Shown here in pieces: positions 14,347 to 51,211 of a DNA stretch of 64,000 bases. Where the stretch lies: positions 682,001 to 746,000 of the forward strand of contig NZ_CP087723.1 of the NCBI RefSeq assembly GCF_024972735.1, in the 5' to 3' direction. This DNA comes from Halalkaliarchaeum sp. AArc-CO (GTDB lineage: Archaea > Halobacteriota > Halobacteria > Halobacteriales > Haloferacaceae). Made by a program: the position numbers and the translations under genes. The notes beneath the pieces are model-generated. The model was not told the origin of the DNA, did not search any database, and saw only the letters and a list, made by a program, of their open reading frames with translations. How positions within the stretch are numbered: position 1 is the first letter of the stretch; the number at the start of each line of letters is the position of its first letter.

Positions 14347-15278
14347 GTTTTCACTGCTCGCTATCGCTCGCAGGAAAACGCGCGTGACGGGATCCCCGCG
14401 AGCGAAGCGAGGTGCGACCGTAGGGAGCACCTCGAAAAGCGAACGGCGAAGCCGTGAGCGAGCGGGGGTAAGTCACGCCCGTGACCGAACGAACTGAGGG
14501 AACGTGCGTGACGGGATTCGAACCGAGTGGAGACGGTCCGGGCCTGCGGCCTCGCTTCGCTCGGCCGTTCCGGGCTGCGACTCCCCGGGTTCGAATCCCT
14601 TTTTGCCGTACCGGTGGCTCACTACGTTCGCCACACGGTACGGGCGTGACGGGATTCGAACCGAAACCAGACGTGCTCGCTCACAGTCGTTCGCTGCGCG
14701 CGACTGGTAGGATTCGAATCCCTTTTGGCCGTTTTCACTGCTCGCTATCGCTCGCAGGAAAACGGGCGTGACGGGATTCGAACCGAAACCAGACGTGCTC
14801 GCTCACAGTCGTTCGCTGCGCGCGACTGGTAGGATTCGAATCCCTTTTGGCCGTTTTCACTGCTCGCTATCGCTCGCAGGAAAACGGGCGTGACGGGATC
14901 CCCGCGATCGATGCGAGGTGCGACCGAAGGGAGCACCTCGAGAAGCGAACGGCGAAGCCGTGAGCGAAGCGAGCGGGGGTAAGTCGCGCCCGTGACCGAA
15001 CGAAGTGAGGGAACGGGCGTGACGGGATTCGAACCGAAACCAGACGTGCTCGCTCACAGTCGTTCGCTGCGCGCGACTGGTAGGATTCGAATCCCTTTTG
15101 GCCGTTTTCACTGCTCGCTATCGCTCGCAGGAAAACGGGCGTGACGGGATTCGAACCGAGTGGAGACGGTCCGGGCCTGCGGCCTCGCTTCGCTCGGCCG
15201 TTCCGGGCTGCGACTCCCCGGGTTCGAATCCCTTTTTGCCGTACCGGTGGCTCACTACGTTCGCCACACGGTACGGGC
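14347..15278 (-). repeat. Array of tRNA-Arg-3'-end-derived repeats
   Basis: Seven consecutive units each begin (plus strand) with GTGACGGGATTCGAACC or GTGACGGGATCCCC, the T-arm/acceptor end of the adjacent tRNA-Arg. Unit starts are 14384, 14508, 14646, 14768, 14890, 15019 and 15141. Type A (138 bp; 14508 and 15141) is identical in both copies. Type B (122 bp; 14646, 14768, 15019) is identical in all three. Type C (124-129 bp; 14384, 14890) is diverged. A and B each contain a second, oppositely oriented T-arm-like GGWTTCGAATCCC and end in a stem-loop (for B, GTTTTC...GAAAAC; for A, GTACCG...CGGTAC). This fills almost the whole gap from 14295; protein ORFs here are artefacts. Confidence 0.85.
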
Positions 15279-15346
15279 GTGACGGGATTCGAACCCGCGA
15301 TCCCGAGGTTAGGAACCTCGTGCCGTATCCGCTTGGCCACACGCCC
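15274..15346 (-). tRNA. tRNA-Arg (CCT anticodon)
   Basis: Full cloverleaf on the minus strand. The acceptor stem is GGGCGTG/CACGCCC with discriminator G (15274). The D arm is GCC...GGC. The anticodon stem CGAGG/CCTCG encloses loop TTCCTAA, giving anticodon CCT (reads AGG, Arg). The T arm is GCGGG-TTCGAAT-CCCGT. No intron is seen. Its 3' end is the model for the repeat array that follows it downstream. Confidence 0.95.
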
Positions 15347-15380
15347 AGGAAGGAAGAGTTCGGCGAGCCCGAAGGCGGTT

Positions 15381-49119: not shown

Positions 49120-50384
49120 ACTACAACTACAGGTATCGCCTCAAGCCGACCGAAAGCCAGCGTGAGACGTTGGACTACCACCGCGATACGTGTAGACAGC
49201 TCTACAACCACGCCCTGTACGGCTTCAACCAGATTCCCGAAGATGAGGGCACCGTCAAACAGCGTGTCCGGAAAATCCGGGACGAGCTTCCCGACCTCAA
49301 AGACTGGTGGGACGCACTCACCGACATCTACTCGAAAGTGCTTCAGCCCACCGTTATGCAGATTGCGAAGAATATCAACCGCCTCGGACAACTCAAAGAG
49401 CAGGGCTACAAGGTTGGTGAACTCCGGTGGAAATCACCACGCGAGTTTCGCAGTTTCACCTACAACCAGTCTGGCTTCGAACTCGACAAAAAGAGTGGTC
49501 AGACCGTGTTGTCGCTGTCGAAACTCGCAGATATTCCTATCGAACTTCACCGACCGCTGCCTGACGATGCCACAGTCAAAGAAGTCACGCTCAAAAAAGA
49601 GAAAACCGGCGAGTGGTTTGCTATCTTCGGCATCGAGATGGACACAGAACCGCCAGCCAAGCCACCGCTAGCGGAGATTGACACTGATGAGATGGTCGGC
49701 ATCGACGTGGGTATTCTGAAGTATTCCCACGATACAGACGGCACAGCGGTCGAATCACTCGACCTCTCAGAGGAACGCGAAAGGCTCGAACGAGAGCAGC
49801 GGAAACTCTCACGCAAAGAGTACGAGTCGAACAACTGGCAGAAGCAACGTCGGCGTGTCGCCGAGTGCCATCTCGACATCAAGCGCAAGCGGCGTGACTT
49901 CCTGCACAAACTCTCGACCTATTACGCTCGGGAGTACGAGCTAGTCGCGGTCGAAAACCTCGACGTAAAAGGGATGCTCGAATCGCCACGCAACAGCCGC
50001 AACACGGCGTCAGCGGCGTGGAGCACCTTTACCGATATGCTCGAAACGAAGTGTGAACGCGAAGGCACGCACTTCGTGGAGGTTGATCCAGATGGCACCA
50101 CCAAAGAGTGTGCCAACTGTGGTGTCGAAACCGAGAAACCGCTGTGGGTTCGTGAGCACTCCTGTCCTGCCTGTCGCTTCGAGGCCGACAGAGACGCAAA
50201 CGCGGCGTGGAATGTTCTTTCTCGCGGACTCACCAAACTAGGAGTGGGACACTCCGAATTACCGCCTGTGGAGACTGCGCTCCCTGCGGGAACTGCGGTT
50301 GTTCCTGCAAAGCGCGTCTTGGAAGCAGGAAGCCCCTGCCTCAAGGAACGAGCGGCGACGCCGCGAGTGAGTAGGCAGGGGTAG
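49116..50384 (+). CDS. tnpB: RNA-guided endonuclease TnpB
   Basis: 422 residues from ATG 49116. The RuvC-like triad is complete: Asp197 in GIDVGI, Glu280 in VAVENLDVKGM, Asp360 in ADRDANAAWN. The zinc finger is complete too (C332-x2-C335...C350-x2-C353). The N-terminal MNYNYRYRLKPTESQRETL and HTH-like part fit. TnpB nucleases are guided by an RNA made from the 3' end of their own gene. The last 17 codons lie in the conserved right-end hairpin. Likely active as far as motifs show. Confidence 0.95.
   Translation: MNYNYRYRLKPTESQRETLDYHRDTCRQLYNHALYGFNQIPEDEGTVKQRVRKIRDELPDLKDWWDALTDIYSKVLQPTVMQIAKNINRLGQLKEQGYKVGELRWKSPREFRSFTYNQSGFELDKKSGQTVLSLSKLADIPIELHRPLPDDATVKEVTLKKEKTGEWFAIFGIEMDTEPPAKPPLAEIDTDEMVGIDVGILKYSHDTDGTAVESLDLSEERERLEREQRKLSRKEYESNNWQKQRRRVAECHLDIKRKRRDFLHKLSTYYAREYELVAVENLDVKGMLESPRNSRNTASAAWSTFTDMLETKCEREGTHFVEVDPDGTTKECANCGVETEKPLWVREHSCPACRFEADRDANAAWNVLSRGLTKLGVGHSELPPVETALPAGTAVVPAKRVLEAGSPCLKERAATPRVSRQG
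50333..50381 (+). ncRNA. TnpB 3'-end hairpin (omega-RNA/right-end structure)
   Basis: CCCCTGCCT (50333-50341) pairs with AGGCAGGGG (50373-50381), just before the TnpB stop. Overlapping sense RNAs at the 3' end of archaeal tnpB genes are known and serve as guide RNAs. The guide would lie just beyond about 50395. The exact RNA ends cannot be read here. Confidence 0.65.
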
Positions 50385-50412
50385 TTCACCGATGCCACCG
50401 CTCCGTCGAATA

Positions 50413-50948: not shown

Positions 50949-51136
50949 TGCTCGCTAGGGGGCCGTGAACCGAATGGAGACGGTCCGGGATGCTCGCTTC
51001 GCTCGCGGCTTCGCCGCTCGCGTTGTTCGAGACACTCACTCCGTTCGTGTCTCGCTTCGCTGCGCGTCCGGGCTGCGACTCCCCGGGTTCAAATCCCTCG
51101 CTGCGCTCCTCTCTCGTCACTTCGTTCCTCGAGAAG
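50949..51136 (-). repeat. tRNA-Glu-3'-end-derived repeat unit
   Basis: The plus-strand word TGCTCGCTAGGGG of the tRNA-Glu 3' end (51137-51149) recurs at 50949-50961 followed by GCCGTGAACC. It is then followed by GGAGACGGTCCGGG, ...CCGGGCTGCGACTCCCCGGGTTCAAATCCCT, the same core as type A units beside tRNA-Arg. The T-loop word is TTCAAAT, as in tRNA-Glu, not TTCGAAT as in the Arg array. One unit of 188 bp. Confidence 0.75.
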
Positions 51137-51211
51137 TGCTCGCTAGGGGATTTGAACCCCTGTCATCGGCTCGAAAGGCCGATATGATTGGCCGGGCTAC
51201 ACCAAGCGAGC
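51137..51211 (-). tRNA. tRNA-Glu (TTC anticodon)
   Basis: Cloverleaf on the minus strand. Acceptor GCTCGCT/AGCGAGC with discriminator A (plus-strand T at 51137). Anticodon stem TCGGC/GCCGA with loop CTTTCGA, giving anticodon TTC (reads GAA, Glu). T arm AGGGG-TTCAAAT-CCCCT. It closes the accessory island. Confidence 0.95.

Follow-up and report, generated by a model that had tools for sequence, protein, structure and literature searches.

The window analysed here is a stretch of 64,000 nucleotides from Halalkaliarchaeum sp. AArc-CO (contig NZ_CP087723.1, positions 682,001 to 746,000). Two of its tRNA genes, tRNA-Glu and tRNA-Arg, are followed by hairpin repeat units, which form an array in the case of tRNA-Arg (Table 1). 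Read on the tRNA strand, the Glu unit consists of a hairpin (H1) starting at the first base past the tRNA, a short spacer, an inverted T-arm copy (X'), a core that forms an imperfect hairpin and, last, a second copy of the tRNA 3' end in direct orientation. The T-arm of tRNA-Glu reads AGGGG TTCAAAT CCCCT, and GGGTTCAAATCCC (51085-51097) is a perfect 13-nt inverted repeat of it (51147-51159). In the direct copy the T-loop has decayed to TTCACGG, leaving the matching word in the inverted arm only. Compared with the Arg units, the core has a longer apical part.

Table 1. Features of the tRNA-Glu and tRNA-Arg loci in the window
Feature	Position	Strand	Basis or remarks
tRNA-Glu (anticodon TTC), host gene	51137..51211	-	ARAGORN; Rfam RF00005, 60.6 bits
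Hairpin H1, abutting the tRNA-Glu 3' end, CTTCTCGAGGAACGAAGTGACGAGAGAGG	51108..51136	-	Sequence; similar hairpin behind tRNA-Glu of G001
Inverted T-arm copy X', host word TTCAAAT	51085..51099	-	TRNA strand reads GAGGGATTTGAACCC
Core hairpin, type A, apex enlarged	50972..51084	-	Contains GGAGACGGTCCGGG (50976-50989) and most of CCGGGCTGCGACTCCCCGGGT (51068-51088); R1 match
Direct copy of tRNA-Glu 3' end, GGTTCACGGCCCCCTAGCGAGCA	50949..50971	-	Acceptor part intact, T-loop decayed; 12-nt acceptor copy confirmed
tRNA-Arg (CCT), array host	15273..15347	-	ARAGORN
Arg array unit 1, core type A, TTCGAAT in both arms	15146..15231	-	R1, 64.5 bits
Arg array unit 2, core type B	15024..15094	-	R1, 88.4 bits
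Arg array unit, core type B	14773..14843	-	R1, 88.4 bits
Arg array unit, core type B	14651..14721	-	R1, 88.4 bits
Arg array final unit, core type A	14513..14598	-	R1, 64.5 bits
Arg array, other hairpin type between tail copies	14853..14967, also 14347-14461	-	Direct repeat family D3

The first-pass annotation had claimed that the Glu unit keeps the core of the Arg array with a T-loop word changed to match its own tRNA, and both parts were borne out. Within the window, GGAGACGGTCCGGG occurs exactly at 14529, 15162 and 50976 only, and CCGGGCTGCGACTCCCCGGGT exactly at 14570, 15203 and 51068 only, that is, once at tRNA-Glu and twice in the Arg array; for CCGGGCTGCGACTCCCCGGGT the chance expectation is 0.02 matches at up to three mismatches. 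The word is TTCAAAT at the Glu unit, as in tRNA-Glu, versus TTCGAAT in the Arg array, as in tRNA-Arg. The further claim that both ends copy the Glu acceptor holds for the far end (50949-50971, TGCTCGCTAGGGGGCCGTGAACC) but not for the inverted arm, which contains T-arm letters only. A covariance model (R1) built from 19 other units of the genome, with the Glu unit left out, recovered the latter at 50960-51096 on the minus strand (45.9 bits, E=2.7e-10). Just past this unit (window 50000-50390), the sequence codes for the C-terminal part of a TnpB-like protein and then shows a palindromic end; from reading alone, this was identified as probably an IS605-type element. The other hairpin type of the Arg array also follows three further tRNA genes of the genome, tRNA-Gly(TCC), tRNA-Arg(GCG) and tRNA-Arg(CCG); in the first two cases its inverted arm is similar to the acceptor end and not to the T-arm, and the tRNA strand carries the pyrimidine version of the palindrome.

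The same anatomy recurs generally. On the tRNA strand, the tRNA is followed by a flush H1, a short spacer, X' of about 12 nt (the T-loop and half of the T-stem), the core hairpin and a tail that directly repeats the host tRNA's final 22 nt (X plus acceptor), with tandem repetition possible. For the genome, coverage comprised the stretches around tRNAs together with pattern matches, and the 3' flanks of its 44 tRNA matches were examined. An inverted copy of the gene's own T-arm within 290 nt downstream was present at 24 of these 44 genes and a second copy of its own acceptor end at 22, compared with about 1% in a control using the ends of other tRNAs; no direct copy was found upstream of any of the genome's tRNA genes. 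Strict parsing yielded 39 units at 19 tRNAs, part of them in tandem, and identical tandem units occur at ArgCCT, LysTTT and LeuCAA. The tRNA flanks of the genome (e.g. window 51108-51136) also regularly carry tRNA-strand hairpins in which GA/GA steps flank a GNA triloop (GCGAAGC, ACGAAGT), as in DNA mini-hairpins known to be very stable.

Beyond this genome, R1 matches were detected in 50 of 60 relatives and in 41 of 247 genomes of the phylum, every one within the same order; the sampled genomes outside the order gave no match. A pattern of core letters only returned 92 exact matches in named haloarchaea, including Halorubrum, Halobellus, Halosimplex, Halobacterium, Salinigranum and others. 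Among these, 79 lay 3' of a same-strand tRNA (76 within 400 nt of its 3' end, 3 farther) and the remaining 13 in stretches with no detectable tRNA, while none of the 92 was upstream of a tRNA or on the opposite strand. In an Rfam search the gathering score was reached by the tRNAs themselves and not by the units, and a known RNA family was therefore rejected. Similarly, viral contigs and phage collections were searched with no unit match, so a virus or phage as the vehicle was rejected. A plasmid search gave four matches, at least one of them at an ordinary plasmid tRNA. One plasmid of Haloarcula halophila (L276, 1427-1569) carries a cluster of at least 17 tRNA genes, with a type B core inside an apparent tRNA-Cys gene, at the T-arm. 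Inspection of the core revealed no clean bulge-helix-bulge, and an intron was rejected.

The arms follow the neighbouring tRNA well beyond the window. Among 75 units of the named genomes, located with the core-only pattern, 63 had the exact host T-loop word in their direct arm and 54 had it in their inverted arm; where the host has an unusual T-loop word, the match was 10/12 and 9/12, respectively. Among covariance-model matches in relatives, the inverted word was exact in 47 of 64, against 17.9 +/- 2.9 when tRNAs were shuffled, and the direct word and the acceptor matched in 61 and 57 of 64 (21.8 and 2.8 shuffled). The proposed coupling of a shared core to the local tRNA sequence is thus strongly supported, and order-wide. 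The word mostly, but not always, follows the adjacent tRNA: across 158 units both words equalled the host's in 123, the inverted word alone differed in 29, the direct word alone in 5 and both in 1. The coupling is therefore no absolute rule, with a changed arm word in 35 of the 158. The changes fall mostly in the inverted arm, which is the pattern expected from decay after copying. The sole unit with both words changed has two different new words, and none of the 158 had both arms changed to one common new word. Each arm is thus related to the host tRNA, with no sign of one arm's word adapting to the other.

The two copies differ in extent. The direct copy starts at the GG preceding the T-loop and ends with the final base of the tRNA gene, 22 nt in all, with 94-100% identity across these positions and background levels to either side (n=138); because these copies were preselected at no more than three mismatches, the free evidence is the fall of identity at the edges. 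The inverted copy covers about 12 nt, namely GGTTCRAATCC with one or two T-stem letters, and its acceptor part is at background level in units elsewhere as well as at tRNA-Glu. It is present at 164 of 244 loci of relatives, which were chosen for holding a core, and the fraction is thus no measure of prevalence. Since the inverted copy ends after about 12 nt, a direct-inverted-direct triplication of the whole tRNA 3' end, through fold-back or an ODIRA-like process, was rejected.

Core types A, B and D have AGTCGC ... CGTCT in common, with a mismatch that is mostly T-T; beneath this common part, two pairs vary freely yet remain paired (CG, GC, UA, AU). Covariation among these pairings in the core stem left 98.4% of the cells paired, a level reached in 0 of 500 shuffles, in an alignment (A2) that took in reverse-strand matches of the same units. 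In the forward rows, wobble pairs are nearly absent (2 GT versus 4 AC mismatches); with no G-U excess, the core stem does not look like an RNA helix. The GT excess among T-arm stem mismatches comes mostly from the two positions adjoining the core, so that this asymmetry between the strands does not by itself prove folding of one strand. The covariation of the core stem could reflect a function other than recombination.

Comparison with a sister species of the same genus (G001) indicates rapid turnover. The core is swapped and H1 constant at AspGTC, ArgCCT and GlyGCC. Units at LeuGAG, GlyCCC, GluTTC, ThrCGT, ProGGG, TyrGTA and others occur in one of the two species only, and those at LeuCAA, Trp and AlaCGC are kept in both. 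At tRNA-Glu, G001 has a similar H1 and lacks the X'-core-tail. An empty site is seen at LeuGAG, where the flank past the last copy in one species closely matches the flank right behind the tRNA in the other; part of the apparent gain may be loss through recombination between tail copies. Further, identical tracts are shared across different tRNAs. A 62-nt tract (GGATTTGAACC-core-GGTTCA) is common to tRNA-Pro (G000) and tRNA-Lys (G001), comprises the core and both half arms, and stops in the middle of the T-loop; others measure 47 nt (Asp/Thr) and 46 nt (Val/Gln). In G001, a CRISPR-like array of 19 repeats (GTTTCAATCCCGTGCTGGGTTTTCTCCCTGCTGCGAC; L160, 1700-3043) starts about 125 nt behind tRNA-Val(GAC).

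Gene-carrying insertions also occur at these sites. In three relatives with a unit lacking a nearby tRNA, an insertion of 8-29 kb separates the two (G014 Gly, G001 Leu, G002 Met), and that at Met contains a tyrosine integrase gene. These elements bear their own attR, of a different length, with the units lying beyond it, and the units as their attR were therefore rejected. Elsewhere, the units stand directly behind tRNAs with no element between and do not bound one as a conventional tRNA attR does. Smaller insertions were observed as well. In the tRNA-Val(CAC) array, two tail copies enclose a toxin-antitoxin pair of MazE/MazF type by Pfam (L066, 3601-4242), and no integrase gene was seen there. 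Two small genes, by eye similar to an AbrB/PIN toxin-antitoxin pair, lie between a unit and a perfect second tail of tRNA-Glu(CTC) (L049, 488-1242).

The reading that we favour, and to which we give about an even chance, is that the units are short non-coding modules that recombine at the tRNA T-loop and have their arms renewed from the host. The recombining module would be X'-core-GGTTC, entering and leaving at the T-loop, where every tRNA has GGTTCRAATCC or a close variant. Acquisition would duplicate the tRNA tail, so that the gene remains whole, and both arms would be set from the host upon or after entry. This setting could proceed by site-specific recombination on a folded single strand, the X'/X stem mimicking the T-arm and the hairpin itself serving as substrate in the way of integron attC sites, or by a short conversion tract copied from the tRNA gene, the cells being polyploid. 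The core stem may serve as the recognition feature for a putative recombinase, and the arms would decay independently after placement. Module recombination at the T-loop would account for the place and orientation of the units, the sharp 22-nt tail duplication, core exchange and the matching words. Integration into tRNA genes is known to occur at the T stem-loop, among other regions, and the 7-nt tRNA loop fits the overlap region of tyrosine recombinases (PMC8371274). Because the loop has the size of that overlap, the direct arm can be expected to have the host's word; the inverted arm calls for a further step. Against this reading, neither a recombinase nor a circle, excision or movement of a unit was observed, and the viral, phage and plasmid searches yielded no donor outside the chromosomes.

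The first-pass annotation had left the choice between a function and a mobile element reconstructing itself from the tRNA that hosts it. The latter is favoured by the host-copied arms, core swapping and the gain and loss within the genus, and the former becomes a rival, which we consider unlikely. It would hold that the hairpins act in tRNA termination, 3' processing or the binding of a nucleoid or replication protein, and that selection keeps X', core and X paired. The conserved core with its covarying stem, the fixed orientation and place, and an H1 flush with the tRNA end agree with such a role. Yet the inverted arm is absent at 20 of the 44 tRNAs of the genome, 10 of 60 relatives have no R1 match, turnover within the genus is quick and distal copies decay. 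A compensatory change of the T-arm word was found in none of the 158 units, and the mismatches of the core stem differ from those of an RNA helix.

By-products of replication and repair offer another explanation, in our judgement quite an unlikely one: template switching at quasi-palindromes, unequal crossing-over of tails and gene conversion in polyploid cells would build and homogenise the repeats with no dedicated element. Identical tandem units, quasi-palindromic loops, arms that track the tRNA itself and copy numbers that differ between sister species would all follow. One core family at unrelated tRNAs throughout the order, however, is beyond the reach of local copying; a fold-back copy should take in the acceptor, and the conserved core mismatches would get corrected. 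That the units are scars, either the attR of a conventional tRNA-integrating element or an element reduced to its attachment region, is very improbable, even though the direct copy is shaped like a tRNA attachment site and gene-carrying insertions use the array tail copies at Val-CAC and Glu-CTC. The real 8-29 kb elements have their own attR, conventional attR sites contain neither an inverted T-arm nor a shared hairpin core, and such elements would need a common attP hairpin, which the virus and phage records searched did not contain.

The units share features with several known systems. Integron attC sites are imperfect hairpins whose base stem is the recombination sequence, with a variable apex and one orientation, and form tandem arrays behind a fixed anchor site. 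The units have a base stem (X'/X) and a covarying core stem, a variable apex, one orientation and tandem arrangement behind an anchor, but their base stem is the tRNA T-arm and varies by host site, and genes are rare in them. A bolder version, which we offer tentatively and regard as rather doubtful, is that they are gene-less hairpin cassettes, spread across the order, that fold as single strands and in this form recombine at any tRNA gene's T-loop, using a stem that mimics the local T-arm and is rewritten for each new host; this would amount to an integron-like array with every tRNA gene as an anchor site. Bacterial REP/BIME sequences are also hairpin repeats arrayed behind genes, but they are not linked to tRNA genes and do not copy the neighbouring gene, as the units do. 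CRISPR- or casposon-like insertion gives a target duplication of fixed length around unrelated inserts; the units show a 22-nt duplication, but their inserts are mutually related and contain an inverted target copy.

Archaeal attL/attR sites of tyrosine recombinases at tRNAs (PMC8371274) resemble the units in three respects: a directly repeated tRNA 3' end leaves the tRNA whole, the T-loop is the likely crossover, and the 3' side is preferred. As in a conventional attR, the direct copy ends at the tRNA 3' end and restores the tRNA, with sharp limits. In contrast to these sites, the units span only about 100-200 nt, lack an integrase, occur in tandem and combine an inverted T-arm with a conserved hairpin core, and where a real element is present they are found beyond its attR. 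Small mobile repeats and PATEs of Haloquadratum walsbyi are palindromic, transposase-free haloarchaeal repeats of about 100 nt, like the units, and their mobilisation is unexplained (PMC3119063). SMR-A has its own fixed terminal repeats, makes no target duplication and inserts into PATE or IS605 palindromes (PMC3119063), whereas the units are located at tRNAs and have host-derived ends. As in MITEs and small mobile repeats, the units are short, non-coding and present in many copies, but fixed terminal inverted repeats of their own are missing and the ends vary with the host tRNA. As far as tested, the units thus bear some likeness to attC hairpin arrays and to small mobile repeats but fit neither definition, their ends being the host's.

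These hairpin repeats point to an undescribed recombining element that takes its ends from the host gene. No description of such units was found in full-text searches of the open literature. For annotation, it matters that the unit tails duplicate part of a tRNA and that gene-carrying insertions land in them. The tRNA genes are classic landing sites of integrating elements, and a repeat that takes its ends from each adjoining tRNA appears undescribed in the open literature. If mobile, the units would represent an element that has no genes and copies its target recognition from the target itself, and they would offer a natural test of host change by tRNA-directed elements. If functional, a whole archaeal order would possess an unannotated element at the 3' end of many of its tRNA genes.
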